A DNA stretch of 34,145 bases from NCBI GenBank assembly GCA_903822015.1, contig CAIJNQ010000272.1, forward strand, positions 1-34,145. Reading direction: 5' to 3'. Every line of letters starts with the position of its first letter. Position 1 is the first letter of the stretch. Shown here one piece after another: positions 1,097 to 19,747 of this stretch. The DNA is from an uncultured Verrucomicrobia subdivision 3 bacterium. Its GTDB lineage: Bacteria > Verrucomicrobiota > Verrucomicrobiia > Limisphaerales > UBA11358. A model generated the notes under the pieces. That model searched no databases. It had not been told where the DNA came from and was given only the letters and a program-made list of their open reading frames with translations. Position numbers and translations under genes: made by a program.

Positions 1097-4000
1097 TCAC
1101 TGTTCAATGATGCGGTAGTAGCGAGTGGTGAAGTTCGACGAGTTGGTGTCCTGCAGCAGCAGCATCCCGTTGGTGAGGCTCAAGGCGTTGGGCAGCGTCG
1201 CCCAATTCACGAGGTCGGTACTGGCCTGCGCTGAGAAGTTGGCGAGGTCGGACGGCGAGAGCAATCCGCCGTTGGCGTCGGTCGAGGTCAACTGGAGCGA
1301 GCCGTTTGGCAGCAGCACCGGCGCAGCCAGGAGCTGCGGCACGAGGACTTTCAATACGGCGTTGCTGCTGACGGCGCTGCCACCGGCACCCGTAACTGTG
1401 ACCGCATAAGTGCCATTTTGTGCGCGGCCCACGTTATTAAGCAGGAGAAAGGGACCGTTGCCGCCGACGGGGTTTCCATTCTGCAGCCATTGATAGTTCA
1501 GCCGGATCTGGCCCGAGACCGGCTGCCCGGAAGCGGTCACCTGGAAGAAGGTGTTGGTGCCCAGGTTGACGATCTGGCTGACGGGCTGGACCGTAATTTG
1601 CGGCGGAGCCGGGACATAGGTGAATTGATCCACCCAGCCGGCGTCCAGACCCATGTCAATGCTGACGTCCTTGGAATAGCGCCACATCAACACATTCGTG
1701 CCGGCGGCGACGGGGATGCTGACCTGCGACCAGCCCGGCGAGCCGGAAATGCTCGTCTGCACGATGCCGTTGATGCGGAATTCGAGGATGTCGAAATCCT
1801 GCTCCGAGGAAACATTCCACCAGAAGGTGTAACTGCCCGGCCAGTTGGTAGCCACGGTGGTTTGCAGGATGGTTTCCTGCAACGCCCCGATGCCTCCGCT
1901 CTGGGCCGCGGACACGCCGTCGTGGGTGAAGTTGGTTTCACCGAACCACTGCGCGTTGCCGCTGGTGTTCCAGCTATAGAGATAATTGCCCTTGGCGTCC
2001 GCCGGAGTGTTCAGCGCATCGCCCAGCGGAATGAACGTGGTCACCTTGACATATTTGCTGGCGGCGACGCCGTAGGCGTTGCTGGCAACCAGTTGATAAA
2101 CGCCCGTCGGGATATAACGGATGGGACCGAATTGCAGCGACGGATTGTTCGTCAGGACCAGCGTGTCATTGGTGGCGCCCGGCACGTTGGTGCCGTTCAA
2201 TTGCCACTGGTAATACACCGGCTGAACGCCGGCGCATTTGGCAGCAAGCATGATGTTCGTCCGGGCGGTGGCAATGACGGACCGGTTCCACGGCTGGACG
2301 GTAAAGGACGGCGCGCGGGTGCCGAACAAGGCCAGGTCATGGTCGCCGCTGCTGGCAATGGCGATGACGTTGGCCAGGTCGGGCGGGACCGAGCCGGAAG
2401 TGGAAGTGGGGCCGTTGTAATAACTGCCCAAGGTCAGGATGGTGCCGTCGTTGCGCAGGGCGACACTGTGGTTCCCACCGGCGGAGATGGCCACAATGTT
2501 GCTCCAGGTCGCCGGAATGGTCGCCTGGCCGGAGACATTATTTCCCCAACCGAAGACCGTGCCATTCGCGCGCAGAGCGAGGAAATGCGAACTGCCCGCG
2601 GCGACGGCAATGAAGTTGGAGGCGATAGATGTGAAGTATTGGCTACCGCCATTTAAACCCCAAGTGACCACCGAACCATCCGAACGTAAGGCAATACTGT
2701 CCGATCCGCCGGCGGCGATGGCCACGACATTGGTCGCCGCCACATTGGTGGTCTGTAAATAACTATTTTGTCCCCAGCCCGCGACGGTGCCATCCGATTT
2801 CAACGCCAGGTCGTGATAATCGCCGCAAGCAATCGCCGTGACGCCGCTCAATCCCGCCGGCACATTCGTTACGCCATATTGGTTGTTGCCGATGGCATAC
2901 ACCGTGCCGTCGGATTTCAACGCCAGACTGTCGCCGTAACCCGCCGCAACAGCGGTGACGATGGAATTGCTCAACGCCGAGAAATTCGTCTGGCCGAAAG
3001 TGGCGAATCCCCAGCTGGCAATTTTTCCGTCCGACTTCAGCGCCAGATAAGGCCCATACGAATTACCGGTGCCCTGATTGCCCACGGCGATGGCGGTCGC
3101 ATTGGTCACAATGATGGATGGATCGGTGGGCAGATAGCCCCAGGCCTTGGCGAACAGAACGCGCTCGTAAATTGATGGACTGGTTACGGTGGTAAACTGG
3201 TTGCTTGCGACGACGCGATAATAACCCGACTGACTGGCCAGCGCTGGATCAAAGACCAGACCGTCACTATTTGCACCGGAAACAGCGGTGAAATTACTCT
3301 GGATGTTCGTTGAGTAATACCACTGGTAGCTCACCGGCCCGCTGCCAAGGACGGTCACACCCAGTGTGACCTTGCTGCCCTGATAATTGGTTTGGGTAGT
3401 CTGACCAGCCGGCGCGCTCAAAAACGTCAGCACGCTGTTGCTGATGACCGTCAGTGGCGCGGGCAAGCTCAACGCCGTGTTGAGGTTGTTGCTGACGAAC
3501 AACTGATAATTGCCGGCGTTGCCGAATTGGACATTGGAGATGACCAGGCTGGGGTTGGTGGCGCCGGGAAGGTTCGTGCCATTCAGCCGCCATTGGTAAC
3601 TCAGGGGCTGCGCGCCCGCGGCGGAACCTTGCAGCGTCACGCTGCGGCCGGTAAATGCTGTTTGGCCGACCGGCGGTTGCAAGATGACCGGACTGCCGTC
3701 GTTGACCAGAGCAAGGCCGTGATACGTTGCGGCGGCGATGGCGATGGAAAGCAGATTGCTCAAGGCCGCCGGCGGAATCGTCTGGTTGTAGACATTGGCG
3801 CCCCAGGCGACGACGGTGCCGTTGGCGCGCAACGCCAGGCTCAGCGTGTCGGCAAAACCGTTCTCGGTGGAGATGGCGATCACATTAGTGAGGCTGGCCG
3901 GCAGATTGGTTCCGAGTCCGGTGCCCCACGCCACCACCGTGCCGTTGGATTTCAGCGCGAGGCTGTGGGTATAACCGGCGGCGATCGCGGTCACATTTGC

Positions 4001-7000
4001 CAGGCCGGCGGGGACACTGATGGCCGGCAGCGCGGAAACGGATCCCCACGCCGCGACCGTGCCGTCGCTGCGCAGCGCCAGCGAATGCGAGAAGCCGCAG
4101 GCGATGGCTGTGATGTGGCTCAATCCTGACGGTATGGCGAACGGCGGAGATCCCCAGCCGACAACCGTGCCCTCGGCCCGCAGTCCCAACCCGAAATTAT
4201 TTCCGGCCGCGATGGAAACGAGGTTGCTCACGCCTGGCACCTGAAAACCGTTCTGGTCGGAAACAGTGCCGTCCGCGCGCAAAGCGAAACTGAAGGCCGG
4301 CCCGAAGGCCGCCAGCGCCACGACATTGCCGGCGTTGCGATAAAGATTGGTCGCATAGCTGGAGCCCCAGGCGATCACATTCCCGCCGGTCCCCACCGCG
4401 AAGCTAGCGCCGGGGCTGCCGGCGACGGCAATCACATTGCTCAATCCCGGCGGCGGCAGACACTCGCCGGAGGTATTCAGACCCCACACAGCGACCGGTC
4501 CAAATGTCAGTTGCGCCGGCGCGCTGACCGCGACACCGACTGAGTTGCTGGCGATGACTTGATAGAAACCGAGATTATTTGTTCCAACCGCCGGATTGGT
4601 GTAGCTCGAACTGGTCGCACCGGGGAGGTTCGTGCCATTCAACAACCATTGATAACCCGGCGCGGGAATGCTGGATGCCACGGCGGTGAAAACGGTTGGC
4701 AAACCCGGTGGCACCGAGCGGCCAACCGGTTGCGAAGTGATGGTCGGCGGAACCAGAACCGTCAATATGGCCGGGCCGGTGGCGGAGCCGGAGACGTTCG
4801 TGACGGTCAGCGAATAGCTGCCCGCGTCCGCCGTGGTGAGATTGGAAATGCTCAAGCTGGCGGTTGCCGAGCCGACAATATGGACGCCGTCATCCAACAG
4901 CGGGGTGCCGTTGAACGACCATTGATAATTATACGGCGGCGTGCCGTAAACCGCCGCGGTGAACGTGGCGGCCGAGCCGATGAGCACGGACTGATCCGTC
5001 GGCGCCTGCGTGAAGACCGGCGGCAGGATGACCGGTGTCAGGATCGCCACGGAACTGGTGACCACACCGACAATATTTGACACGACGAGCTGGTAGCCGC
5101 CGCCGTCGTTGGTCAGGACGCCGGTGAGGTTGAGCGTCGAGTTCGTTGAACCGCTGATGCGCCCGCCGTCCGTCAACGGCGTGTTATTGAAATACCATTG
5201 GAAACTCATCGGCAACGTACCGGTGAGCGTGGGGGCAAAACTCGCGTTGCTGCTGACGACGACGGATTCATTGGTCGGTTGCACGGCAAAGGCCGGCGGC
5301 GTCAGGTAGTTGAGGTGGAGCACCAGATTGCCCGCATCCGAACTGTAACCGCCGGCAAGAATGGCATAGGTCGTGCCGGCCGTCGTCGGGATGATGACCT
5401 GCGAAGTGATGCCGCCGGTATCGTCGTTGCAGGCCACTTCCGTCAGCGAGTCGCAAGACCCCGTGTAAAGTGCCAGGCCGGTATCAAAGTCGCTCCCGAA
5501 GGTGTCCACGATGAGCAATCCCGCGACCGGCGAAGTGAATTGATACCAGACACCGTGACCAAAGCCATCCACGCAATCCGGCACCGGATCGCCATAAGAA
5601 GTGGCCGGAACGGTGGATTGAACATTCGTATAGCTGGCGCTGGGGATGACGATGGCGCCGCTGCACAGGTCATTGGCGACGGTCGAGTCAATCACCTTGA
5701 GCGACACGTTGGTGCTGTCGGCCGAGCCGTAGGCGTTGGTGATGAAACAACTGAACTTGCTGCCGGAATCCGACAATTGGGCGTTGTTGAGCGCGTAGCT
5801 GACATTGGTCGCGCCGGGAATCAACACACCGTTCCGGCTCCAGAAATAACTCATCGGAATACTGCCGTAGACATTCACGCTGAAGGTGGCGGTGTGGTTC
5901 AACAAGACAACCTGATTCGGCGATTGCGAAAGAATGGCCGGCGGGGTGGGCGGCAGATAAACGGTCAGCACGGCGTTGGAGCTCACTGCCGATCCGATCA
6001 GATTCGAGACCACCACGGAGTAATTGCCGGCCTGCGTGAGTTGGACATTGGCCAGGGTCAGCGAAACATTGGTGGCGCCGGCGATGTTGGTGCCGTTGAA
6101 AAGCCATTGATAATTGAGCGGGGACGAGCCTTGAGCCGCTACGGTGAAGGTGGCCGTGCCGCCGACGGTAATATTCTGGTTGGTTGGCTGCACCGTGATG
6201 GCAAGCGCCCCGGCGATAGGTGTCTGATTCTGATAGATGGTTATCGTGTTATCATAGGAGTTGGCAAAAACGACGTCCGTCCGTCCGTCTCCGTCCAGAT
6301 CGCCCGCGGCCAAGCCCCAGGCATTCCAGCCGGTTGCAAAATCCACCCGCGATCCCAGCGAAGCGCCGGTAAAGGCGCCGGTGCCAATATTCTGAAACAA
6401 GGAGAGGGCGCTGTTTAATTCCGTGACCTCGGCGATATCGGGCTTGCCGTCGCCGTTAAAGTCAGCCAACGCGAGGGAGTGGCCGCGTCCAGCCAGGCCG
6501 AAATCCAACTCGGCGGCGAAGGAATTGGTTGTCAGCGAACCCGGCGTGGAAAGGTTCCGGTAAACCGACATTGTTTGGGGCTGGTAGGCGGTAGTTATGA
6601 GTTCCGGCTTGCCATCGCCATCGAGGTCGCCGATTAACACGGTCACGGAATTATTTTGCGCCGGCAAATCGACGCGGGTGTCGAAGGTGTTGGTGCCGAT
6701 GTTTCCCGGGGTGCCGTTGTTCCGGAAGAGCGAGATGAATCCGCTATTGCCGGTCACGGCCAGATCCGGTTTGCCGTCGCCGTCCAAATCGCCAATCGCC
6801 ACATTTAATGGACCACCCCCGGTGGCTATAAATCTGGGAGTAAAAGCAATGTTTCCGATGGTGCTGATATTCTGGAAAATTGAAATTGAATTGTCTCCGT
6901 TATTGGCCGTTACAATCTCCGGTTTGCCATCGCCATCGAGGTCCCGGATCGCAATTCCGATGGGGGTGGTCCCGGTTGCCAAATCCACCCGCGCGGCGAA

Positions 7001-9712
7001 CGAGTTCGTTGTCAGGCTGCCGGGCGTGCTGATGTTTCGGTAAATCGAAATCAGATTGTCGCCGTAATCCGACGCGATGATGTCCAGTTTCCCGTCGCCA
7101 TCCAGATCCGCCACATCGACATAATATGGACTTTCCGACCCGGCCGGCGTGGCCAAAACCACTGGGGCTGCAAAGGAAGCCGCCGTCAGCGAACCATTGG
7201 TGCTGAGGTTCTGATAAATCCAAACGGTGTGGTCATAGGTATTGGCCACCACTAGGTCCGGTTTGCCATCGCCATCGAGATCGGCAATCACAATTTTGAC
7301 AGGGCCGTTGCCGGCCGCCAGATTCTGGTTCGGGCCAAAGGTTGCGGAACTGATGGCTTGGCCGACGCCAGCAAACGTGGGTTCGAACGGCGTGCTGGCG
7401 TAAGCAATAAGACCATTCACGGTCACGGTGATGGGTGCAAACGTTGCCCCGGTGGGAACAGAAACGGTCAGGCTGGTCGGACTCGACGTCAAGACACTGG
7501 CCCGCACTGCGCCAAAATAAACAATGTTGGCAGACGGCGCCGGGCTGAAGTTGTTTCCGGAAATGGTCACCACGGTTCCATTCGTGCCGGATGCCGGCGC
7601 GAAGCTGGAAATGACCGGCACACCGGACGGTGCGTTACTCAAGTTAGCCGAGGACAGGATTTGAACGCCGGAGAGGATGGCATAACCGGCAACGCCATTG
7701 CGCACGTTGAGAACCAACGGTTGTCCTGTGGTCACCGGCACGTTCCGCCAGCGCGCATATTGCACCCCTTCCGTCCAGACCGGAATACTGCTGACGGGCG
7801 AATCGTAGGTGGTTTTGACGCCGTAGCTGGTGGCGCCGACCGTCACCTCGTAGTTGCCGTCCACGGAATAAGCCAGCACGTCATACGGGCCGGAAGGCAG
7901 ATTGGTAAAGGTGACGATATCGGTGCCGCCATCCAACGGGTAAATGTAATTCGCGTACATCGGATCGCTGGAAGCGTCACCCCAGGCCCCCGGCGCATCC
8001 GAAACGCTCACGCCCACGGTCGTGGCTCCCCCATTGGCTGCTTCCAGGTTTGTCAAATAGCCCGAGAAACGCCAGACCCCGGGAGCATTGGAAATGTCGC
8101 GATCATAGAAATTCCAAAAGTCATTGGTCGCCAGGCCGACGGCGGCCAATCCGGTCTTCAAACTGTAGCCGCGTCCGCCGCCGCCGCCAAAATCAACATC
8201 CAGCAAGAACGGCGGGCCGGCGGCGCCGGTACATTTGCCCGCGCTGCCGGCGTTGTAGATGGCGGCAATTTCGTTGGAAGCCAGGGCGCGAGTGTAGATT
8301 GAGGTTTCGTCAATGACGCCGCCGAACATGTTCAAATAAGGCGCCCAGGTGCCCGTGGTGCCGATGAAAACCGGAGTGGTGTCGTAATCGAGCGCGAAGC
8401 CGGGGGTCGCCGAAGCCTCCAGCACGCCGTTGACATACAATCTGGACTGGGTGCCGTCGTAGGTGGCCGCGACGTGATACCAGACGCCGCGCTGCACGAT
8501 GGTTTGCGAATTGATCGCGACCTGGTTGCCGGTGCGGGAGACGCAAAACTGGAAGCGGTCGGAGTACGTGCTGTTGCCGTTATCGAGGGTGCCTTTCAGC
8601 AGGCTGTAGCCTTCAAACCACGCCGTCCAGGTGTTTTTCTTGAACACGATTTGTTCGCCGCCGCGGTTGGCGGGAAGATTGGGATCCAGCCAGACCCAGG
8701 CCTCGACGGTGACATTAGCGGGTTTGAGCGCGGCCGAATCGGGGATTTGCACGAAGCCGTTGGTTCCGTCGAACCGGAAACCCTGCCCGACCTTGCCGGG
8801 AGCAAAGGCGGCCCCGCCTTGCAGCGAACCGTTATCGCCGCCGATAATATCATTGGCATTGCCTTCCGCCGGCCACCAGCCGACCAAGCCTGACGGCGGC
8901 GTCACGCAACTGGCTTGGGTCGTTCCGCATTTGCCGGCGTTGCCGGCATTATAGATGGCGGCGATTTCTGATGATGACAAAGCGCGGTTGTAAAGGCTGG
9001 ACTCATCGATGGTCCCGCCAAAAAAGCTGCCGGCATCAGTTCCAGACGCCCGGGTGCCCAAATAAAAGTCATAACTGGTTTGCGGCGTAAATGAACCCAG
9101 ATTCGAAGATTGCACGGCCAAGCCGTTGCAATAAAGCACGGCGATGCCGCTGGCTTTGTCGTAGGTCAACGCGATGTGCTGATAGGTGTTTGGCACGACG
9201 ACACCGCCACCGGTGCTGAAAACGTGAGTACCACCGCTGGTATCAATCAGGTTGGCGTAGAGGCAGCCGGGCGCTCCGCCACCCAGGGTGGGGTATTGGC
9301 TTTCGGTGATAAACAAATGCGCGCCGATGCCCGCATCCCCGGCATTATTGTTCCATTCCGCCAAAGCTTGACGGTTGGTATTCAGGGGATTGATCCAGGT
9401 TTCGAAAGTAAAACCGCTGCCGCTGCCGACATTCAGGCTGGAACTGGCGGGAACCCGGACGTAGGCGTTTGAGCCATTGAGATAGAAAGCCCCGCCGGCT
9501 TCCCCGGCGCTAAAGGAAATATTTGTGGTCACGCCATTATTGCCACCGACCAGGTCATTGGCATTGCCTTCCGCCGGCCACCAGCTGATCAGGCCCGAAG
9601 GTGGGGGGTAGCAGGAGGCGCCTTGAGTCTGAGGGGCGGCGATAATGGCCGCGAGCAGGAAGAGACCCGCCGACAGCGCTTTACCGGATGAGAATTTCAG
9701 GTTCCTTTTCAT
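1097..9712 (-). CDS. Giant secreted multidomain protein (2871 aa): signal peptide, 2x LamG-like, IPT/TIG, 7 FG-GAP/VCBS repeats, Ig-like domains, PPC-like domain, two RCC1-like 7-repeat blocks, C-terminal Ig and sorting-like tail
   Basis: Single uninterrupted ORF; N-terminal MKRNLKFSSGKALSAGLFLLAAIIAAPQTQGA signal peptide; AAGGAAATAGTCATG Shine-Dalgarno/start region; repeated DLDGDGKPD, YQWxxNGTNxxGAT and LALKSDGTVxAWG motifs. Confidence 0.95.
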   Translation of the reverse strand: MKRNLKFSSGKALSAGLFLLAAIIAAPQTQGASCYPPPSGLISWWPAEGNANDLVGGNNGVTTNISFSAGEAGGAFYLNGSNAYVRVPASSSLNVGSGSGFTFETWINPLNTNRQALAEWNNNAGDAGIGAHLFITESQYPTLGGGAPGCLYANLIDTSGGTHVFSTGGGVVVPNTYQHIALTYDKASGIAVLYCNGLAVQSSNLGSFTPQTSYDFYLGTRASGTDAGSFFGGTIDESSLYNRALSSSEIAAIYNAGNAGKCGTTQASCVTPPSGLVGWWPAEGNANDIIGGDNGSLQGGAAFAPGKVGQGFRFDGTNGFVQIPDSAALKPANVTVEAWVWLDPNLPANRGGEQIVFKKNTWTAWFEGYSLLKGTLDNGNSTYSDRFQFCVSRTGNQVAINSQTIVQRGVWYHVAATYDGTQSRLYVNGVLEASATPGFALDYDTTPVFIGTTGTWAPYLNMFGGVIDETSIYTRALASNEIAAIYNAGSAGKCTGAAGPPFLLDVDFGGGGGRGYSLKTGLAAVGLATNDFWNFYDRDISNAPGVWRFSGYLTNLEAANGGATTVGVSVSDAPGAWGDASSDPMYANYIYPLDGGTDIVTFTNLPSGPYDVLAYSVDGNYEVTVGATSYGVKTTYDSPVSSIPVWTEGVQYARWRNVPVTTGQPLVLNVRNGVAGYAILSGVQILSSANLSNAPSGVPVISSFAPASGTNGTVVTISGNNFSPAPSANIVYFGAVRASVLTSSPTSLTVSVPTGATFAPITVTVNGLIAYASTPFEPTFAGVGQAISSATFGPNQNLAAGNGPVKIVIADLDGDGKPDLVVANTYDHTVWIYQNLSTNGSLTAASFAAPVVLATPAGSESPYYVDVADLDGDGKLDIIASDYGDNLISIYRNISTPGSLTTNSFAARVDLATGTTPIGIAIRDLDGDGKPEIVTANNGDNSISIFQNISTIGNIAFTPRFIATGGGPLNVAIGDLDGDGKPDLAVTGNSGFISLFRNNGTPGNIGTNTFDTRVDLPAQNNSVTVLIGDLDGDGKPELITTAYQPQTMSVYRNLSTPGSLTTNSFAAELDFGLAGRGHSLALADFNGDGKPDIAEVTELNSALSLFQNIGTGAFTGASLGSRVDFATGWNAWGLAAGDLDGDGRTDVVFANSYDNTITIYQNQTPIAGALAITVQPTNQNITVGGTATFTVAAQGSSPLNYQWLFNGTNIAGATNVSLTLANVQLTQAGNYSVVVSNLIGSAVSSNAVLTVYLPPTPPAILSQSPNQVVLLNHTATFSVNVYGSIPMSYFWSRNGVLIPGATNVSYALNNAQLSDSGSKFSCFITNAYGSADSTNVSLKVIDSTVANDLCSGAIVIPSASYTNVQSTVPATSYGDPVPDCVDGFGHGVWYQFTSPVAGLLIVDTFGSDFDTGLALYTGSCDSLTEVACNDDTGGITSQVIIPTTAGTTYAILAGGYSSDAGNLVLHLNYLTPPAFAVQPTNESVVVSSNASFAPTLTGTLPMSFQWYFNNTPLTDGGRISGSTNSTLNLTGVLTNDGGGYQLVVSNIVGVVTSSVAILTPVILPPVFTQAPTDQSVLIGSAATFTAAVYGTPPYNYQWSFNGTPLLDDGVHIVGSATASLSISNLTTADAGSYSLTVTNVSGSATGPAILTVLVPPTITSQPVGRSVPPGLPTVFTAVASSIPAPGYQWLLNGTNLPGATSSSYTNPAVGTNNLGFYQVIASNSVGVAVSAPAQLTFGPVAVWGLNTSGECLPPPGLSNVIAVAGSPGASFAVGTGGNVIAWGSSYATNLYRNAGNVVALAAFGPAFSFALRADGTVSDQNGFQVPGVSNLVSIAAGNNFGLGLRAEGTVVGWGSPPFAIPSGLSHITAIACGFSHSLALRSDGTVAAWGSVSALPAISVPAGLANVTAIAAGYTHSLALKSNGTVVAWGTGLGTNLPASLTNVIAISTENGFADTLSLALRANGTVVAWGANVYNQTIPPAALSNLLSIAIAAATYHGLALVNDGSPVILQPPVGQTAFTGRSVTLQGSAAGAQPLSYQWRLNGTNLPGATNPSLVISNVQFGNAGNYQLFVSNNLNTALSLPAPLTVISNSVLTFLSAPAGQTTQTNYQGSKVTLGVTVLGSGPVSYQWYYSTNIQSNFTAVSGANSDGLVFDPALASQSGYYRVVASNQFTTVTSPSIYERVLFAKAWGYLPTDPSIIVTNATAIAVGNQGTGNSYGPYLALKSDGKIASWGFATFGQTNFSALSNSIVTAVAAGYGDSLALKSDGTVYAIGNNQYGVTNVPAGLSGVTAIACGDYHDLALKSDGTVAGWGQNSYLQTTNVAATNVVAIAAGGSDSIALRSDGSVVTWGLNGGSQYFTSIASNFIAVAAGSSHFLALRANGTVFGWGNNVSGQATIPATWSNIVAISAGGNHSVALRNDGTILTLGSYYNGPTSTSGSVPPDLANVIAIASSGDHDLALFGTRAPSFTVQPWNRSVIATARTNIMLAAKCAGVQPVYYQWQLNGTNVPGATNDTLVLTNNPSLQFGPIRYIPTGVYQLVASNAYGVAASKYVKVTTFIPLGDALNTPADAKGNYLYSWNTSGNAQWFGETNFTHDGVSAAQSGGIGALQETILQTTVATNWPGSYTFWWNVSSEQDFDILEFRINGIVQTSISGSPGWSQVSIPVAAGTNVLMWRYSKDVSIDMGLDAGWVDQFTYVPAPPQITVQPVSQIVNLGTNTFFQVTASGQPVSGQIRLNYQWLQNGNPVGGNGPFLLLNNVGRAQNGTYAVTVTGAGGSAVSSNAVLKVLVPQLLAAPVLLPNGSLQLTSTDANGGLLSPSDLANFSAQASTDLVNWATLPNALSLTNGMLLLQDTNSSNFTTRYYRIIEQ
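8850..9585. repeat. Pair of identical 31-nt direct repeats (8850-8880 and 9555-9585) within the two LamG-encoding segments
   Basis: tcattggcattgccttccgccggccaccagc occurs identically at both places, encoding WWPAEGNAND on the minus strand. Confidence 0.9.
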
Positions 9713-9920
9713 GACTATTTCCTTAGAAAATGCGCCGGCTTTTCTGAAAAAACCGGTTGCGTGACATATGCGGATTGGCGTGGTGGATATTAAAAGCAGA
9801 ATTCGATGGCTTTGGCAATTCTAAAGTTCGCTATAGCCATGGATAAAGATGATCAAACGCGGCCATGGCAGCCGTGCCATTAAAGGTTGGATTACCGAAG
9901 AATCGTTTGGAAAATCGGCC

Positions 9921-9960
9921 GGCTAAAAGATGGAATCCACCGGTTTAGCCTTGATTTTTT
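9921..9960 (+). terminator. Terminator-like hairpin plus T-tract with no annotated plus-strand gene upstream
   Basis: GGCTAAA (9921-9927) pairs with TTTAGCC (9944-9950), followed by TTGATTTTTT. Confidence 0.45.
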
Positions 9961-9989
9961 CTGGCACATGAATTGCGACCTTTGGCGGC

Positions 9990-10211
9990 ATGGCTAAGAA
10001 AGTAAACGCACTGAAGCTCGTGCTGGAATCCCGGGGACAGGCTGAACTCACCAATCGGCTGCCCGCGAAGATTTCTCCCGCGCTATATCTGATGCAGCTG
10101 CGGTTGCCGAAGGTAAAGATTTCCCCGATGAAAAGAAAAGTGCCGGTGATCGTCGATGCCGAGACCCGCGCCCAGATTGAGCACCCGGTGAAGATTAGAC
10201 ACGTTGACTAG
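9990..10211 (+). CDS. Small hypothetical protein (73 aa), possibly a truncated gene because the frame stays open after the TAG
   Basis: ATG-initiated ORF MAKKVNALKLVLESRGQAELTNRLPAK..VKIRHVD*; the frame continues open from 10212 to the TGA near 10380. Confidence 0.4.
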   Translation: MAKKVNALKLVLESRGQAELTNRLPAKISPALYLMQLRLPKVKISPMKRKVPVIVDAETRAQIEHPVKIRHVD

Positions 10212-10290
10212 TTTCTGGACAGTGGCGGCAAAGAAATTGAGCATGGATTTTTGATCCCGTTGAAGGCGGTGGAGACACAGATTGTGGGTA

Positions 10291-10941
10291 TCAGTCCTTT
10301 GGCACTTCCAAGAGAACCGGAATACCGCCAGTCGCATTTTGACCCGGAAATTCCACGCGCTCAAATCCAGCACTCTTGAAAAACATAACCAGCTGCCATT
10401 CTGCGCGCTGTGTCGCCTCATTCAGAATCCCATCCGTTCGGGCCGCGCGCTTGACGTCATCCACGGCCATTTGCCTTGCCGCCTGCTCGAGATCCTTGTC
10501 GAAACTCCTTAAAAAGCCCTGTTTCCAGTCTATCACCCGAGTCAGGTTGTCATCGAGATAGGCGTCCATGATCTGCGCCGGGGGGAGGGTGATACGGATG
10601 CTTTTACCGGAGACTGAAATCGCCTCAGGCGCCAGATGTTTCAGGTCAATACCCGCCTTCACCACGCCGTGGGCGAGCAGCAATATGCGGTTATCGCCCT
10701 GCACCAGCTGGCCGAGGGTGCTGGTCGGTGGCGCGTCGAGAATGACCACTTTTTCGATGACGTATTTGACGGTGACGAGATCGGCGAGCGATTGCACCTG
10801 GCGGATGACCGCCGAGGTGTTTTCCTCGCGGGGCAGGGTATGCTGATGCCGTTGGGATAATTTGAAGCCAAGCCAGCCACCGGCGCCGAGGAGAAACGCC
10901 GCCAGGACCGTGATCGAGAAAATCCGTTCCAACCGCCGCAT
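10291..10941 (-). CDS. DUF4230-like membrane-anchored protein
   Basis: 216 aa with N-terminal TM segment (RIFSITVLAAFLLGAGGWLGFKL) and DUF4230-like pattern ..SLADLVTVKYVIEKVV..LLLAHGVVKAGIDL..; codes against the small plus-strand ORFs. Confidence 0.75.
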   Translation of the reverse strand: MRRLERIFSITVLAAFLLGAGGWLGFKLSQRHQHTLPREENTSAVIRQVQSLADLVTVKYVIEKVVILDAPPTSTLGQLVQGDNRILLLAHGVVKAGIDLKHLAPEAISVSGKSIRITLPPAQIMDAYLDDNLTRVIDWKQGFLRSFDKDLEQAARQMAVDDVKRAARTDGILNEATQRAEWQLVMFFKSAGFERVEFPGQNATGGIPVLLEVPKD

Positions 10942-11014
10942 GGCGGGAAAGTAAATCGCGAGGGGCAGGAAGCAAGCCGCAATTGGCGATCCGCGGGCAA
11001 CGGGCCCGGGCGAT

Positions 11015-11470
11015 TTACTTTTTCGACGGCTGCAATGATTGCCGGCGCGTGGCTTGCAGCCGCTCGATCACCACTTTCGTCACGCGTTTCATCCATTCGT
11101 AACCCAGCGCGTGGTCGCTTTCGCAGAGCTCGCGGAGCGTGGTGGCAAAAAAGATAATCGCCCTGGTGGGTTTCACCGCGCGGGCATCAAAACTCCATTG
11201 GTAAGGCGGAAACAGCCACGACCAGCCGAGTACGTCGCCGGCGTGGATGGTCTGAACGAGCTGCCCGGCTTTTTTTCCGGCGGCCGATTCCAGCGCGACT
11301 TCGCCCTCGAGGATGATGTAAAAACGGTTGGCGGCGAGACCCTCGTTAAAAATCATCTTGCCCGCGGGGAAGGCGACCTCCATGGCGTTGTCGGCCAACA
11401 CCTCGAGCTGTGGCCGGGACAAGCCTTTGAGAAACGGTTGCGCGGCCAGAAGAGCGGTGTCGATTTTCAT
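11015..11470 (-). CDS. Single-domain cyclic-nucleotide-binding-fold protein (no HTH)
   Basis: MKIDTALLAAQPFLKGLSRPQLEVLADNAMEVAFPAGKMIFNEGLAANRFYIILEGEVAL... CNBD fold pattern. The listed ORF begins at a TTG (11488); the ATG at 11470 follows an AAAGG Shine-Dalgarno-like sequence. Confidence 0.82.
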   Translation of the reverse strand: MKIDTALLAAQPFLKGLSRPQLEVLADNAMEVAFPAGKMIFNEGLAANRFYIILEGEVALESAAGKKAGQLVQTIHAGDVLGWSWLFPPYQWSFDARAVKPTRAIIFFATTLRELCESDHALGYEWMKRVTKVVIERLQATRRQSLQPSKK

Positions 11471-11624
11471 AATTTTGCCTTTCGCCAATGGCTGCAGATT
11501 ATTGTTTCAGCCGCTCATAACTTATCGGCGCCGCCCAAAATGACTCTCCTTGGTTTGCGGTATTTCAAACATATTTTGGCCTCCGCGCCGGCGACTTTGC
11601 CGCCCGGAGGAAAAACTTTCCGCT

Positions 11625-11652
11625 TTTACGGGCGCCCGGCAAAACCTAGAAT
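11625..11652 (+). promoter_or_regulatory. Predicted promoter for hemB (leaderless-type)
   Basis: TTTACG (11625-11630) - 16 nt - TAGAAT (11647-11652) - GCGCCC - ATG (11659). Confidence 0.5.
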
Positions 11653-11658
11653 GCGCCC

Positions 11659-12666
11659 ATGAATTTGCCCGGATTTCCCATTGCCCGCCCGCGGCGGCTG
11701 CGGACCTCGCCCGCGCTGCGCCGCCTCGTAGCGGAAACCTCGCTGGATATTTCGCAACTGGTACTGCCGCTCTTCGCCCGCGGCGGCCGGAAGCTGCGCC
11801 GGCCGGTCGACGCCATGCCGGGCGTGTTTCAATTGTCGCCGGATGAAATTGTGCGCGAGGCGTCGGCCGCCCATGCGCTGGGCGTGCCGGCGGTATTGCT
11901 GTTCGGCATACCCGATAAAAAAGATGCCCGAGCCACCGGCGCCTACGCCCGGAACGGCATCGTGCAGCAAACGGTGCGGCTGCTGAAAAAGGAATTGCCG
12001 TCGCTGCTGGTCATCACGGATGTCTGCCTGTGCGAATACATGAGTCACGGCCATTGCGGCCTCATCCACGGCGGCAACGGCAAGGTGCCGGGGTCAGGCA
12101 AAATCCTGAATGACCCCACGCTGAAACTGCTGGCGAACACGGCGGCGAGCCACGCGGCGGCGGGCGCAGACATCGTCGCGCCGAGTGACATGATGGACGG
12201 CCGCGTGGCCGCGATCCGGGCGGCGCTGGACCGGGAAGGCTTTCCCGACACGCCGATCATGAGCTATGCCGCGAAATTCGCGTCGGCGTTTTACGGCCCG
12301 TTCCGCGAAGTGGCGGAGTCCGCACCTTCGTTCGGTGACCGGCGCAGTTATCAGATGGATGCCGCGAACGCCAACGAGGCCCTGCGCGAAGTGGCCCTGG
12401 ACATTCAGGAAGGCGCGGACATTGTGATGGTCAAGCCGGCGCTGGCATATCTGGACATCATCCAGCGGGTGAAAGCGGAATTCGGCTTGCCCACCGCGGC
12501 CTACGCCGTAAGCGGCGAACATGCCATGATCAAGGCGGCGGCGGCGAACGGCTGGATAGACGAGCGGTGCGTGACCCTGGAAAGTTTGCTGGCGATGCGC
12601 CGGGCGGGCGCGGATATTTTGATCACGTACGCGGCGGTGGACGCCGCCAGGTGGCTGAAGGAATAG
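11659..12666 (+). CDS. hemB: Delta-aminolevulinic acid dehydratase (porphobilinogen synthase)
   Basis: Diagnostic DVCLCEYMSHGHCGLIHGG (Zn-cysteine site), APSDMMDGRVAAIRAALD, SYAAKFASAFYGPFREV, MVKPALAYLDII and YAVSGEHAMIKAAAANGWID. Confidence 0.97.
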   Translation: MNLPGFPIARPRRLRTSPALRRLVAETSLDISQLVLPLFARGGRKLRRPVDAMPGVFQLSPDEIVREASAAHALGVPAVLLFGIPDKKDARATGAYARNGIVQQTVRLLKKELPSLLVITDVCLCEYMSHGHCGLIHGGNGKVPGSGKILNDPTLKLLANTAASHAAAGADIVAPSDMMDGRVAAIRAALDREGFPDTPIMSYAAKFASAFYGPFREVAESAPSFGDRRSYQMDAANANEALREVALDIQEGADIVMVKPALAYLDIIQRVKAEFGLPTAAYAVSGEHAMIKAAAANGWIDERCVTLESLLAMRRAGADILITYAAVDAARWLKE

Positions 12667-12777
12667 CGCGGCCGGGTGGGAATGCCCGCCGGCGCCGACC
12701 CGGGGCGTCCCGGCGCGACGGAGAATCGCCCCGACGGCCGGCCTCACGGATTTAGTCGAAGCGCGCGTGTTTTGCGT

Positions 12778-12806
12778 TTGCCATGTCCCCGCCCGCAAGT
12801 TAGGCT
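12778..12806 (+). promoter_or_regulatory. Predicted promoter for the SurA/PpiD-like gene
   Basis: TTGCCA (12778-12783) - 17 nt - TAGGCT (12801-12806); ATG at 12825. Confidence 0.4.
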
Positions 12807-12824
12807 AGGTGTTCATTTTTCACT

Positions 12825-14480
12825 ATGATTGGAACAATTCGCAAACATTCCGGCTGGCTTTGGGCGGTGATCATCACGCTCACGGTAATTTCTTTTATCT
12901 GGTGGGGCGCGTCGCCGGCTCAACGCGGCGGCGGCGGGCGCACCACCGGTGATTTCGGCTCCATCAACGGAAAAAAGGTCACCCAGCAGCAATATCTGGA
13001 GGCGCTCAACGAATTCAAATTGTTCTATCTGTTCCATTACGGCACCTGGCCGGACAAGAAAAGCAACGTCTCGCAGACGGACATGGAACGCGAAGCCTAC
13101 ATCCGGCTGCTGCTGGTGCAAAAGGCGTCCGAGCTCGGCATCCATGTGGGGGTGGACGCGGCGGCGGCGGCGGCGAACCAGATGCTGCGCTCGCTCGGCC
13201 GGAACGGCCAGACCGTCACGGTGGAAGAATTTGCGAAACAGATTTTGCTGCCGGAGGGATTGACGGTGACGGATTTTGAAAATTTCACCCGCCACGACGT
13301 CGCGATCCAGCAGCTGGTACAGGCCATCGGTTCGTCCGGGGCGCTGCTCACGCCGCAGGATGCCGCCAGCATTTACCGGCGCGAACACCAGGAACTGTCG
13401 GCGCAGGCCGTTTTCTTTTCGGCCCGGAATTATCTTCCGTCGGTCAAAGTAACGCCGCAGGCGGTCGGACAATTTTACACCAATTACCTGGCGGAATACC
13501 GTTTGCCTGACCGGGTGCAGGTCAGTTATGTCGCGTTCAACCTGGGGGATTACGTCGCGCAAGCGAAGGCGGAATGGGCGAAGACCAATTTTGAGGCGCA
13601 GATTGACGCGATTTATCTCCAGAACGGTCCGCAGGCGTTTCCCGACGCCAAGACGCCCGAGGCGGCCAAGGCCAAAATCCGCGACCTGATGATCCGCCAG
13701 CGGGCACTGGTTGACGCCCGCGGCCAGGCCAACGAATTTGCCAGCGCGGTCTTCAATCTCTCACCGGCCAGCGCGAACAATCTCGCGACGGTGGCGAAGC
13801 AAAAAGGATTGACCGTGCAAACGACGGCGCCGTTCGATGCCGAAGCCGGCCCGCAGGAATTTGCCGCGCCCGAAGGTTTCACCAAGACCGCGTTCGGGCT
13901 GACGCCGGATGAGCCGTTTGCCAATCCGATCGCCAGCACCAACGCCATTTACGTCATGGCGCTGGCCCGGCAGCTGCCGAGCGAAATCCCGTCGTTTGCG
14001 GATATCCGCGCCCGGGTGACGCAGGATTTCCAGCTGCAGCAGGCCACGGTGCTGGCGCGCGAAGCCGGCACGAATTTCTTTGTCAAGCTTTCCGTCAGCC
14101 TGGCACTCGGAAAAAGTTTTGCGACCATCTGTGTTGCGGACGGCCTGCAACCGCAGGTACTGCCGCCTTTTTCAATCAGCACCCGCGAGCTGCCGGCCCT
14201 TGCCGGACATGCCGAATTGAACCAGATCAAGCAGGCGGCGTTCACCACCCAGGCCGGACATGCCAGTAATTTCCAGGAAACCGAAGACGGCGGGTTTGTG
14301 CTTTTCGTCCAATCGCAACTGCCCGTGGACCAGTCCGTCATGAACGCCGAACTGCCGCAGTTCACTGAAACGCTGCGCCGGTCGCGCGAAAATGCGGCGT
14401 TCAACGAATGGCTCCAGACGGAAGCCACCCGCGCCCTCCGCGACACGCCGGTGGTGCGCCGGATGGCGGGAGGCCAGTAA
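12825..14480 (+). CDS. SurA/PpiD-like N-terminal-domain periplasmic folding protein, membrane anchored
   Basis: N-terminal TM (WLWAVIITLTVISFIWWG), then GDFGSINGKKVTQQQYLEALNEF, typical of SurA_N/PpiD proteins. The parvulin domain is not clearly recognisable by eye. Confidence 0.78.
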   Translation: MIGTIRKHSGWLWAVIITLTVISFIWWGASPAQRGGGGRTTGDFGSINGKKVTQQQYLEALNEFKLFYLFHYGTWPDKKSNVSQTDMEREAYIRLLLVQKASELGIHVGVDAAAAAANQMLRSLGRNGQTVTVEEFAKQILLPEGLTVTDFENFTRHDVAIQQLVQAIGSSGALLTPQDAASIYRREHQELSAQAVFFSARNYLPSVKVTPQAVGQFYTNYLAEYRLPDRVQVSYVAFNLGDYVAQAKAEWAKTNFEAQIDAIYLQNGPQAFPDAKTPEAAKAKIRDLMIRQRALVDARGQANEFASAVFNLSPASANNLATVAKQKGLTVQTTAPFDAEAGPQEFAAPEGFTKTAFGLTPDEPFANPIASTNAIYVMALARQLPSEIPSFADIRARVTQDFQLQQATVLAREAGTNFFVKLSVSLALGKSFATICVADGLQPQVLPPFSISTRELPALAGHAELNQIKQAAFTTQAGHASNFQETEDGGFVLFVQSQLPVDQSVMNAELPQFTETLRRSRENAAFNEWLQTEATRALRDTPVVRRMAGGQ

Positions 14481-14485
14481 GCGTC

Positions 14486-15295
14486 GTGACCGCGGCCATC
14501 AAGCTCTCGGCTCCTGCGACGCGGGAGTTCTGGGAAATCCCCGTCCTGTTCGAGGACGAACACTGGCTCGCCCTGGACAAGCCGGCGCGATTGCCGACCG
14601 CACCGGACGCCGACAACCCGGGACGGCCGAGCCTGATGAAACTGCTGCACACCGCCATCGCCGACAAAAAACCGTGGGCGGCGGAACGGGGTCTGGAATA
14701 TCTCAACAACGCAAACCAGCCCGACGACGACGCCAGCGGCGTGATTCTCCTGGCCAAAACCAAACCGGCGTTCGTCGACCTGGCCAACCGGTTCAGTTCG
14801 GAGAAGGCCCGGCTGAAATACGTCGCGCTCGTGCACGGCGAACCGCAGGAAAACCAGTTTGAAGTGAACGCCAAGCTGTCGCCGCACCCGGTCAAACCCG
14901 GGGTGATGCGCGTCGACCCGCAGGGCGGCAAGCAGGCGACGACCCGGTTCGAACTGCTGGAAGTTTTTCCACGCCACGGCTATGCGCTCCTGAAAGGTGA
15001 ACCCCTGCAGGAGCGGGCGCACCAAGTGCGGGTCCACGCCAGCCATGTCGGCTTGAAGATCGTGGGCGATGAAGTTTACGGCGGCAAGCCGCTCTGGCTA
15101 TCGCGCTTGAAGAAGGATTACCGGCTCAAGCCGGGCCGGGAGGAGCGGCCGCTGCTGGCGCGGGCCTCGCTACACCTGGAGGAGCTGACCCTGCCGCACC
15201 CGGTCACGAATGAAAGCGTGACCATCAAAAGCGAATGGCCGAAGGATTTGAAAGTCGCCCTGAAGTATCTGCGCCTGTATTCGGCGGCAGGTTAA
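14486..15295 (+). CDS. RluA-family RNA pseudouridine synthase-like protein with divergent catalytic motif
   Basis: PVLFEDEHWLALDKPARLPT, ASGVILLAKTK, KYVALVHGEP and ERAHQVRVHASHVGLKIVGDEVYGG. GTG at 14486 preceded by GGGAGG; the listed ATG (14408) would overlap the upstream gene. Confidence 0.83.
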   Translation: MTAAIKLSAPATREFWEIPVLFEDEHWLALDKPARLPTAPDADNPGRPSLMKLLHTAIADKKPWAAERGLEYLNNANQPDDDASGVILLAKTKPAFVDLANRFSSEKARLKYVALVHGEPQENQFEVNAKLSPHPVKPGVMRVDPQGGKQATTRFELLEVFPRHGYALLKGEPLQERAHQVRVHASHVGLKIVGDEVYGGKPLWLSRLKKDYRLKPGREERPLLARASLHLEELTLPHPVTNESVTIKSEWPKDLKVALKYLRLYSAAG

Positions 15296-15328
15296 AAGTT
15301 GCACGTGGCAAGCGATAAAACCTGCCGC
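15284..15328. terminator. Inverted repeat between convergent genes; candidate bidirectional 3'-end structure
   Basis: GCGGCAGGTT (15284-15293) pairs with AACCTGCCGC (15319-15328), 10-bp perfect stem with a 25-nt loop; no T-tract on either side. Confidence 0.45.
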
Positions 15329-15335
15329 GCAACGT

Positions 15336-16235
15336 TTACCCTGCAACACACCAATTGAGAATCGCCTTCTGGACGTGCAGCCGATTTTCGGCCTGCGTGA
15401 AAATCGTGCCGGCGTGCGCCTCGAAGGTCTCCGCGTCAATCTCCTTGCCGCGATACGCCGGCAGGCAGTGCATCACCAAGGCGCCCGGCTTGGCGAGCTG
15501 CACGAGGCCGGTGTTAATTTGATAGCCGCACAAAACTTTGAGGCGTTCGGCGGCCTCGGCTTCCCGGCCCATGGAGACCCAGACGTCGGTGTAAAGCAGA
15601 TCCGCACCGCTCGCGGCGGCGCGCAAATCTTCCGTGCAAATAATATTTCCGCCGGCGCGTTTTAAAATTTCCGGGGCAGGCTGAAACGCCCGCGGGGCGG
15701 CGATGCGCAGCTCAAAGCCCAGTTTTGCCGCCGCAAAGATCCAGGACACGGGCATGTTGCAGGCCCCGTCGCCGATAAAGGTGACGACCCGGCCGGCGAT
15801 CGGGCCGCATTTTTCTTCGAAGGTAAAAATGTCCGCCAGCACCTGGCAGGGATGCTCATCATCCGTGAGCGCGTTGATGGTGGGGATTTTTGAAAACGCC
15901 GCGAACTCCTCGACATCGTTTTGCGCGAAGGTGCGGATGACCGCGCCATGCACCATCCGGCCCAGGACGCGCGCGGTGTCCCGGATCGGCTCGCCGCGGC
16001 CCAACTGGATGTCGTTGGCGCTCAAAAAGAGCGACTCACCGCCCAGTTCACGGATGCCGACCTCGAAGGAAACCCGGGTGCGCGTTGACGATTTCGAGAA
16101 CATCAGGGCCCAGGTCTGGCCGGCGAGCGGCTGATTTGCATGGGCGGCCCTCTCCTTTTTGAAAACGGACGAGTCCCGCAAAATATGCGCAAAGTCCGCG
16201 CGCGGCAGTTTTTCCAAAGACAACAAATTTTTCAT
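15336..16235 (-). CDS. argF: Ornithine carbamoyltransferase
   Basis: SKSSTRTRVSFEVG, DEHPCQVLAD, TDVWVSMG and MHCLPAYRGKEID. Likely start MKNLLSLEKLPRADF at 16235, not the upstream ORF extension to 16460. Confidence 0.95.
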   Translation of the reverse strand: MKNLLSLEKLPRADFAHILRDSSVFKKERAAHANQPLAGQTWALMFSKSSTRTRVSFEVGIRELGGESLFLSANDIQLGRGEPIRDTARVLGRMVHGAVIRTFAQNDVEEFAAFSKIPTINALTDDEHPCQVLADIFTFEEKCGPIAGRVVTFIGDGACNMPVSWIFAAAKLGFELRIAAPRAFQPAPEILKRAGGNIICTEDLRAAASGADLLYTDVWVSMGREAEAAERLKVLCGYQINTGLVQLAKPGALVMHCLPAYRGKEIDAETFEAHAGTIFTQAENRLHVQKAILNWCVAG

Positions 16236-16299
16236 GGCTCTACAGATTTTGGGGGATTTCCAACCAAAGAAAATTTTATACCGCAAAGAAAACGCGCCG

Positions 16300-16923
16300 T
16301 CACTTCTTTTTCTTGGCTGCGTCGGCCGCGCGCCAGAGGTACCAGGCCGCGGTGGTGGCATGCGGGCGCCAGCGCTTGCCGAACCGGATGAGAGCTTTGG
16401 GTTTGGGCATTTCCCGTTTTTTATAAGCGATCCGAAACCCGTTGCGCACCCCGAAATCATCCACCGGCAGAACGTCCCGGCGGCCGAGTTGAAAGATCAG
16501 CAGCATCTCGACGGTCCAGCGGCCGACGCCGCGCGCAGCGGTCAGGCGATCGATGATTTCCTCGTCGCCCAATTTTTCAATCTGCCGGGAGGAGGGGATG
16601 GTGCCGTCGAGGGTTTTCGCCGCGATGTCGCGCAGGGCCGCGATCTTGGCGAAGGAAAAGCCGCAGGCGCGAAGCTGGAGATCGGTGACGGCCGCCAGAT
16701 CCGCGGGCTTGGGAAACCGGCGCCCGGGAAAAAGCCGTTGGAACCGGCCGAGAATGTTTTCCGCCGCGGCGGCATGGAGCTGCTGGTGCGCGACCGCCTC
16801 CACGAGCGATTGAAACGGCGAACGCCATGGTTCAGGCTTGAGCCGGCAGGGCCCGGTCTGGCGGATGAGCCGGCGCATCACGGGGTCGACGCCGGACAGA
16901 TGTTTGAGCGCAGCGGAGGTCAT
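16300..16923 (-). CDS. DNA-3-methyladenine glycosylase II-like (AlkA/HhH-GPD family)
   Basis: FQSLVEAVAHQQLHAAAAENILGRF, helix-hairpin-helix ARGVGRWTVEMLLIFQLGRRDVLPVDDFGVRNG with catalytic-Asp region. Confidence 0.9.
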   Translation of the reverse strand: MTSAALKHLSGVDPVMRRLIRQTGPCRLKPEPWRSPFQSLVEAVAHQQLHAAAAENILGRFQRLFPGRRFPKPADLAAVTDLQLRACGFSFAKIAALRDIAAKTLDGTIPSSRQIEKLGDEEIIDRLTAARGVGRWTVEMLLIFQLGRRDVLPVDDFGVRNGFRIAYKKREMPKPKALIRFGKRWRPHATTAAWYLWRAADAAKKKK

Positions 16924-16942
16924 GCGAGGAAGGATGGGGTGA

Positions 16943-17422
16943 TTACGGCGGGACCACGTCCGGGGGCGAATCCAACCGGGCCTTCACCTGGTCAAGAATC
17001 TTTTTACATTCGGAACGGTATGAAACCGAGAGCGGCTTTTCCTCCTCCATGCTGGCCTCATGGCGGTCCACCACCGCATATGCATTGCCCGCGAGGATGA
17101 ACCGGCCATCGCCCGCGGAGGTAATATTGAGCCGCATCCGGATCCAAACCGGATTGGACGACCAGCCGCCGTAAGCCAGCTTATCCCAGCCGGTGCCCCG
17201 TTTTTCAAACGTCAACGGGTTGACCTGCTGGTATTCATCGGCCAAAAACACGCCGGCCGCCGCCTGCTGGATTTCAGCCTCGGTACGGCCGGAAATGGTG
17301 ACGGACGCCAATTCGCCGGAATCCGCCTGGTCGGTCGTCCGGCAACCGGCCAGGCAAACGAGGCCAGCGAGCAGCGTCCAGGCCAATGACCGGAAGAGTT
17401 TGGGGGGCAAAAGATATATCAT
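16943..17422 (-). CDS. Putative lipoprotein of unknown function
   Basis: MIYLLPPKLFRSLAWTLLAGLVCLAGCRTT: lipobox LAGC. ATG at 17422 lies just past the argD stop; the ORF-track start (17458) would overlap argD. Confidence 0.75.
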   Translation of the reverse strand: MIYLLPPKLFRSLAWTLLAGLVCLAGCRTTDQADSGELASVTISGRTEAEIQQAAAGVFLADEYQQVNPLTFEKRGTGWDKLAYGGWSSNPVWIRMRLNITSAGDGRFILAGNAYAVVDRHEASMEEEKPLSVSYRSECKKILDQVKARLDSPPDVVPP

Positions 17423-17429
17423 GACCGGG

Positions 17430-18713
17430 TCAGGCGAGCGATTTGACCAGTTCCTCAATTTTGGCGATGCCCTCGGCGGCTTCCGACGGCTGCAAGTTCA
17501 GGGCCGGCAGCAGCCGGATGACCCGGGTGCCGGCCGGAATGACCAGCACGCCGGCCGCCTGCAGGCGGTTGACGAATTGGAGGGCGGCCGGCTGTTCGCG
17601 GGCGGCGAACGCCGGGATATTTTCAGCCAATTCCAAACCGAGCATGAAGCCCAGCCCGCGGGCGTTTTTGACGACACCGGGGTAGGTTTCCACCAGCCGG
17701 GCCAGTTCATTTTTGATCCCGCCGCCCAGCGTCCGCGCGTTTTCATCCAGCTTTTCCGCCTCAATGACGGAGAGAATTTTCAAGGCGACCGCGCAGGCCA
17801 GGGGCGTGCCGCCGAAGGTAGTGCCGTGCGTCCCCGGCCCGAGCAGGTCGGAATACGGCGCCCGCAACCAGAACGCGCCGACGGGGAAACCCCCGCCGAG
17901 CGATTTGGCCATGGAAAGACCGTCGGGCAGAAAATTTTCGCCGCCGGGAACGCCCTCAAGAATCCGTTGAAAGCTCTGGAATTTTCCCGTGCGATAATGG
18001 CCGCACTGCACGCCGTCCATGAGGAGCAGCAGTTTTTTCTCGTCGCACAACGCGCGGAGGCCGAGCAAATATTCCGGGGTGGCGGGCGTGACGCCGCCTT
18101 CGCCCTGCACGCCCTCGATGAGTATGGCAACCGTCGCCGGCGAAATGGCCGCGCGGGCGGCAGCCAAGTCATTATACGGGACGTGCCGGAAGCCGGGCAT
18201 CATCGGTTCGAAACCTTTTTTAACCTTATCCTGGCCGGTGGCGGCGATGCCGGCGAGCGTGCGGCCATGAAAGGAATGGTGCGCGGTTAAAATCTCGAAC
18301 CGGCCCTCCGCGTGGCCGAATTTCCGCGCGAGTTTGAACAGGCCCTCGTTCGCCTCGGCGCCGCTGTTGCAGAAAAAGACTTTGCCGGGGCCGATGCGCT
18401 GGACGAGTTCAGCAGCGAGCCGGCCCTGCGGTTCGGTGAAATACAGGTTCGAGACATGGATGAGCTTCCGGGACTGCTCGACCAGCGCCCCGGTGATGGC
18501 GGGATGGGCATGGCCGAGCGAGCAGACGGCAATGCCACCGCCCAGGTCGAGATAACGTTTGCCGGTGACATCGAACAGATAGCTGCCCGCGCCGTGGCTC
18601 AAGACGAGGTCAAAGCGGCCGTAACTGGGCACGACGTTTTTCGCGAACAGCTCGCGGACGGATTCGTAATCGTTGCGGACAATCGCCGGCGGCGCAGGAA
18701 CAATTTCTTTCAT
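17430..18713 (-). CDS. argD: Acetylornithine/succinyldiaminopimelate-type aminotransferase (class III PLP)
   Basis: DVTGKRYLDLGGGIAVCSLGHAHPAI, FFCNSGAEANEGLFKLARKFG, HSFHGRTLAGIAATGQ and GTHGTTFGGTPLACAVAL; located beside argB and near argF. Confidence 0.9.
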   Translation of the reverse strand: MKEIVPAPPAIVRNDYESVRELFAKNVVPSYGRFDLVLSHGAGSYLFDVTGKRYLDLGGGIAVCSLGHAHPAITGALVEQSRKLIHVSNLYFTEPQGRLAAELVQRIGPGKVFFCNSGAEANEGLFKLARKFGHAEGRFEILTAHHSFHGRTLAGIAATGQDKVKKGFEPMMPGFRHVPYNDLAAARAAISPATVAILIEGVQGEGGVTPATPEYLLGLRALCDEKKLLLLMDGVQCGHYRTGKFQSFQRILEGVPGGENFLPDGLSMAKSLGGGFPVGAFWLRAPYSDLLGPGTHGTTFGGTPLACAVALKILSVIEAEKLDENARTLGGGIKNELARLVETYPGVVKNARGLGFMLGLELAENIPAFAAREQPAALQFVNRLQAAGVLVIPAGTRVIRLLPALNLQPSEAAEGIAKIEELVKSLA

Positions 18714-18749
18714 CAGAGCGGATTAAATCGCAACGGCGTCAAGACACAA

Positions 18750-19631: not shown

Positions 19632-19700
19632 TGTTCGCCGGCAGATTTAGCCACAGACGGAACGCGGATGAAACATTGTTTTTTCAAAAACAAAGAAAGA

Positions 19701-19728
19701 TTGTCACGCCACCCGGATTGGCGATAAT
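19701..19728 (+). promoter_or_regulatory. Predicted promoter for the ThuA-DUF1080 gene
   Basis: TTGTCA (19701-19706) - 16 nt - GATAAT (19723-19728); ATG at 19748. Confidence 0.5.
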
Positions 19729-19747
19729 GCGTCGCATTTCGCAACCC

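Follow-up and report, generated by a model that had tools for sequence, protein, structure and literature searches.

The locus considered here raises the question of whether three runs of repeats that were counted by eye in a single predicted polypeptide, seven units in each, are complete and closed beta-propellers, and what a protein carrying them could do. The window, by which we mean the whole stretch of 34,145 nucleotides that was analyzed, is one contig of a source genome of 310 contigs (2.85 Mb, 73% completeness). The ORF listing and translation of the window give an ORF for 2871 aa on the reverse strand (1097-9712), with an AAGGA about 7 nt upstream of its ATG.

Make-up of the 2871-aa protein

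The features of the gene are listed below from its N-terminal to its C-terminal end, with window coordinates and the evidence in parentheses.

1097-9712, reverse strand: whole ORF, predicted exported multidomain protein, 2871 aa (ORF call; AAGGA upstream of ATG)
9617-9712, reverse strand: putative signal peptide, aa 1-32 (hydropathy peak of 3.04 after basic residues, ending in QGA before SC)
8927-9616, reverse strand: LamG domain 1, aa 33-262 (PF13385, two stretches)
8222-8911, reverse strand: LamG domain 2, aa 268-497 (PF13385, best stretch 315-483)
7643-8215, reverse strand: middle domain, aa 500-690 (no Pfam match)
7382-7627, reverse strand: TIG/IPT domain, aa 696-777 (PF01833)
6197-7345, reverse strand: predicted seven-bladed FG-GAP/VCBS-like propeller with seven DxDxDG loops, aa 790-1172 (Pfam, unit profile, structure prediction)
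5678-6196, reverse strand: Ig-like domains 1-2 (PF13927/PF07679; own profile)
5339-5677, reverse strand: galactose-binding-like (GBD-like) domain, aa 1346-1458 (PF23759, 30.0 bits, cut-off 27)
4502-5335, reverse strand: Ig-like domains 3-5 (PF13927, best stretch 1564-1639)
3695-4501, reverse strand: RCC1-like propeller A, seven units, aa 1738-2006 (unit profile, structure model, fold match, Pfam)
3158-3694, reverse strand: Ig-like domains 6-7 (Pfam; confident in model)
2318-3157, reverse strand: RCC1-like propeller B, seven units, aa 2186-2465 (unit profile, BLIP-II homology, low-confidence model, Pfam)
2033-2317, reverse strand: Ig-like domain 8 (Pfam; own profile)
1628-2032, reverse strand: putative jelly-roll-like domain, aa 2561-2695 (no Pfam match)
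1355-1627, reverse strand: Ig-like domain 9 (Pfam; own profile)
1100-1354, reverse strand: C-terminal domain of ~77 aa, aa 2787-2871, common to many other ORFs (profile searches)

The signal peptide was assigned by hydropathy alone. Pfam recognizes nine Ig_3, nine RCC1_2, six FG-GAP_3, two Laminin_G_3 and one TIG stretch, and the description in an earlier note on this DNA of two N-terminal LamG domains and Ig-like linkers is thus borne out by the two PF13385 matches and the nine Ig_3 stretches. To the domains listed in that note are now added the GBD-like, middle, jelly-roll-like and C-terminal domains. The Pfam search of the whole protein found no enzyme or catalytic family, and an NCBIfam search of it gave nothing above a cut-off. 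The TIG domain is modelled as a confident beta sandwich. Each LamG domain is flanked by cysteines at its start and end (C34/C262 and C269/C494; window 8222-9616, reverse strand), and these pairs suggest a disulphide lock.

Seven units in each of three arrays

The earlier note had taken seven as the given number of blades for closed propellers of both families. For VCBS-like propellers this is not a given, since the median blade number of the highly repetitive ones is six (PMC9218822), and the count therefore needed testing. In the FG-GAP array all seven of the calcium-loop motifs read by eye are present, with DxDxDG loops in each of the seven blades at aa 811, 869, 924, 975, 1029, 1084, and 1138 (nt 7282 down to 6275). 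With a profile of the FG-GAP unit the count is exactly seven for all 17 of the FG-GAP arrays in 13 related proteins, the window protein included. A fragment with the TIG domain and the FG-GAP array was predicted from an alignment of 16 sequences at a pLDDT of 91.2 and a pTM of 0.90. In this model the array has six four-strand blades and a three-strand seventh blade that is completed by a strand N-terminal to blade one, such that the seven blades close into a ring, and the model argues strongly that the FG-GAP array is a closed seven-bladed propeller.

As to its kind, the FG-GAP array matches CRTAC1 (E 5e-21), the PVL lectin (E ~1e-9) and integrin alpha-IIb (E ~4e-7) in sequence, and the Foldseek matches of the model in the PDB include the propellers of LGI1, BBS1, ITFG2 and the PLL lectins. 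What is shared with CRTAC1, the PVL and PLL lectins and integrin alpha is the combination of seven blades with DxDxDG calcium loops. Integrin propellers are, however, defined by a pair of FG and GAP motifs and have calcium loops in only three or four blades (PMC3192720), whereas here the loops are in all seven. When the stretch of each blade was searched for GAP and FG, the GAP tripeptide was found in none of the seven and the FG dipeptide in only two. Because the integrin motif pair is missing even though all seven calcium loops are present, the array is, as judged from its motifs, of the FG-GAP_3/VCBS rather than the integrin kind. It differs from these propellers also in that a TIG domain precedes it.

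The two RCC1-like arrays also have seven units each by a profile built from the units, spaced at 34-43 aa in array A and 38-46 aa in array B, which agrees with the counts made by eye for the two segments (A, nt 3695-4501; B, nt 2318-3157). In both, the final unit is only half a unit, and a single W-G strand lies ahead of the first; a half-unit at one end with a matching strand at the other is the usual closing arrangement of a propeller. The fragment containing both arrays was predicted from an alignment of 10 sequences at a pLDDT of 70.8 and a pTM of 0.56. The model of array A (pLDDT mostly 60-90) has seven blades, with three strands in each of blades one to six and the last blade completed by the N-terminal strand, so that sequence and model both place seven repeats with the last blade split between the two ends. 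In array B the strands are arranged alike, at a pLDDT of ~30-80 (mean near 60), and its seven units and closing strand are seen by sequence, together with homology to BLIP-II, at low confidence of the model. Hence, of the three closed propellers proposed in one secreted polypeptide, and of the structure prediction suggested for each segment, the FG-GAP ring is strongly upheld, that of array A can be accepted with good confidence, and that of array B with moderate confidence, by sequence more than by model.

Beta-lactamase inhibitory protein II (BLIP-II) is both the best PDB sequence match of the RCC1 arrays (E 8.9e-51, the best stretch lying in array B) and their best fold match (target TM-score 0.80-0.82), and has in common with them that it is secreted and built of short RCC1-like repeats. 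It is a stand-alone domain of ~270 aa, whereas here two such domains lie within one long chain. RCC1 and the RCC1-like domains of UVR8 and HERC2 have a related repeat motif, with PDB matches at E ~1e-10 to 1e-21, but classical RCC1 repeats are ~50 aa long (PF00415, 50 positions) and those of the window arrays 34-46 aa. The arrays match RCC1_2 (PF13540) strongly, and no single stretch of the window gene passes PF00415, although the summed score of array B does exceed the cut-off. They are thus of the short (~38 aa) RCC1_2/BLIP-II type and not RCC1 proper. The integrin-alpha and RCC1 labels given earlier are accordingly corrected to VCBS-like and BLIP-II-type for the arrays themselves. Other RCC1-rich ORFs in the same genome, on contigs C81 and C161 of G000, have the classical ~50-aa repeats. 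Conservation along the RCC1 blades, taken register by register, is lower in loops than in strands, and because the variable positions are simply the loops, a selected binding face is not demonstrated by this pattern.

Orthologues and whole-propeller turnover

Among the genomes sampled, orthologues are present in six others of the same genus, and eleven loci were found in the genome collection, some from the same genomes. The named relatives of the gene are from Limisphaerales/Verrucomicrobia subdivision 3 genomes. Where flanking sequence is available, the gene has a Mur ligase gene on one side (81-93% identity in five relatives) and a DUF4230 gene on the other (54-61%, likewise in five), and the relatives at this locus are therefore true orthologues. 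The propellers of the orthologues are only 40-77% identical, and hence the three-propeller protein evolves much faster than the Mur ligase.

The domain order proposed as a signature to be sought in other genomes is retained in part. The C-terminal half is common to the orthologues (GBD-Ig-RCC7-Ig2-RCC7-Ig-jelly roll-Ig-CT, with L082 lacking the GBD), and its jelly-roll-like domain is conserved at 53-82%. The N-terminal half varies, with one or more LamG domains and differing TIG-FG7 and RCC1 content. For example, the L073 orthologue (contig CAJAQO010000228.1, ORF 3716-13261, forward strand) has two consecutive TIG-FG-GAP propellers of exactly seven units each, the FG-GAP propeller is absent in L078, L081 and L082, and an extra RCC1-like array is found in L078, L079 (near the C terminus) and L082. 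The middle domain is kept in L081 at 74% identity and is missing from most relatives. In one orthologue (L061/L080, G027 C70) the reading frame breaks into two that overlap where RCC1 array A ends, by a frameshift or a sequencing error.

In no orthologue does an RCC1 array exceed seven units, and counts below seven are mostly found where there is a gap of roughly two blade lengths, as left by one diverged blade below threshold. Since all 17 FG-GAP arrays have seven units and no RCC1 array of an orthologue has more, the seven-unit counts are not due to chance. The arrays are complete domains rather than random runs of repeats, as had been claimed, and the repeat counts made by eye here mark true closed domains, with moderate confidence for array B. 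Runs of 13-15 RCC1 units are confined to distant bacteria; they lack a linker, as would be the case if two propellers had fused. A Dormiibacterota locus (L109, ORFs 7236-20072, forward strand) has three adjacent ORFs with 14, 15, and 7 RCC1 units.

A maximum likelihood tree of 39 RCC1 arrays separates a clade of propeller A (10 rows, support 100/100) from a clade of propeller B (12 rows, 99/97). The extra arrays of L078, L079 and L082 fall outside both in this tree, of which the deep forks are uncertain, and the idea that they are copies of A or B is not supported. A comparison of A with B gave no register shift with a clear peak, and together with their separate clades this means that any duplication that gave rise to A and B is old. 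In 63 of 70 cases a window blade best matches the blade at the same position in an orthologue, and Tandem Repeats Finder detects no tandem DNA repeat of blade length in the gene. Recent amplification of blades is rejected on these grounds; the divergence of the blades is old, and what has changed recently is the propeller domain as a whole. The orthologue series therefore records the gain and loss of complete propellers and not of single blades, in contrast to the blade-by-blade amplification that has been described for highly repetitive propellers (PMC9218822).

Each module of the protein is of a known kind and it is their combination that is a clade-specific arrangement. We found no description of the LamG/TIG/FG-GAP/two-RCC1 architecture in the open-access literature. 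A signal peptide, a chain of Ig-like domains, LamG and repeat modules, and the lack of a catalytic domain are features common to the large modular Ig/LamG surface proteins of Verrucomicrobiota and other bacteria, but here two separate propeller families are found in one chain and are swapped as whole domains between orthologues.

The C-terminal domain and the role of the protein

The ~77-aa domain at the C terminus (consensus STDLxxW...DTNAxNFxxRFYR; window 1100-1354, reverse strand; L113-L142) extends well beyond this gene. It has 61 matches in the source genome at E ≤ 0.01. Matches in 27 distinct ORFs were examined, and every one of them reaches to within 10 residues of the stop codon; where the start of these ORFs could be read, the N terminus is in most cases signal-like by hydropathy. 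The domain occurs in 29 of 30 relatives, with 6-57 copies in each, and in 44 of the 195 genomes that were sampled from across the phylum. A further search found it in none of 16 genomes of other groups that were reached via other loci, and found 56 and 57 copies in two Limisphaerales-type genomes. The domain matches no Pfam or NCBIfam family at a meaningful level and no solved structure convincingly, 11 of the C-terminal domains gave no match to the Pfam or NCBIfam tails of the T9SS sorting domain, and no description of it was found in the open-access literature. A search for the SprA translocon matched in none of 20 relatives, but in none of the controls either. In these features it resembles a sorting or anchoring domain. 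A bolder suggestion, which we make tentatively and would not press, is that it could be the targeting or anchoring tag of an undescribed Limisphaerales export or attachment route that serves dozens of proteins per genome, with the three-propeller protein as one cargo whose outward half is re-equipped by whole-propeller exchange at a fixed locus. Should the domain turn out to be a sorting tag, it would provide a handle on how the cell surface is built in a mostly uncultured order.

We propose that the 2871-aa protein is probably a long exported and most likely surface-attached, non-enzymatic, multivalent binding protein of which the outer half is remodelled and the inner half kept. As this is drawn from anatomy, namely the domain content, we infer the surface location, the type of ligand and tethering by the C-terminal domain. 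The approximately nine Ig-like domains would hold the ligand-binding modules apart along the chain, these being two lectin-like LamG domains, one galactose-binding-like domain, one FG-GAP/VCBS propeller with calcium loops and a pair of BLIP-II-like propellers. With seven blades predicted to close into a disc, each propeller could present a single face to a ligand. The usual association of VCBS-like propellers is with carbohydrate recognition, and BLIP-II is secreted and binds protein (PMC9218822); the FG-GAP disc may more likely bind a glycan and the BLIP-II-like discs a protein or a glycan. Targeting or tethering of the chain would fall to the C-terminal domain, with the LamG and FG-GAP half outermost. 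In that outer half whole propellers and LamG domains are swapped across species, and the inner half, which contains propellers A and B, is retained. The discs and lectin-like domains, presented away from the cell, might then provide multivalent attachment to polysaccharide or to neighboring cells, the conserved inner propellers with a common partner and the variable outer propellers with a species-specific one. A function as a surface adhesin or scaffold is a reasonable reading of these features.

Ig chains and repeat domains often act as stalks, and the propellers might accordingly be mainly rigid, protease-resistant spacers in a surface fiber, in which only the LamG and GBD-like domains would bind. 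Propellers differ freely in number and kind between orthologues, as expected of interchangeable spacers, but A and B have each been retained as a positional orthologue of its own with blade-specific sequences (position matches in 63 of 70 cases), and as spacers would not need such position-specific conservation we regard a pure spacer role as unlikely. Less probable still is that the protein diffuses freely after secretion, as a binder or an inhibitor of enzymes, and that its RCC1-like discs work as BLIP-II does on beta-lactamases. Although BLIP-II is the nearest solved relative of these discs, it is a single small domain, while here the discs form part of a 2871-aa chain that also has lectin-like and shared C-terminal domains, and the similarity in fold does not carry over the beta-lactamase target.

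Large repeat proteins are sometimes carriers of contact-dependent toxins or effectors, and the FG-GAP region has, as do many FG-GAP propellers, a distant similarity to the propellers of Tc-type B subunits. We give this explanation very little weight, as the protein lacks a toxin domain, an RHS core and a variable C-terminal cassette, and its C terminus is the conserved end and its N-terminal half the variable one. That the architecture is an assembly artefact of a metagenome bin as fragmented and incomplete as this one is excluded in practice because the orthologues repeat the arrangement, with the same order and the same neighboring genes in independently assembled genomes, and the frame is open over 2907 codons. 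Multivalent binding at the cell surface thus remains our preferred reading of the three-propeller protein. Elsewhere in the window (15336-19631, reverse strand) there is a row of arginine-type genes for a carbamoyltransferase, a class III aminotransferase and an amino-acid kinase.
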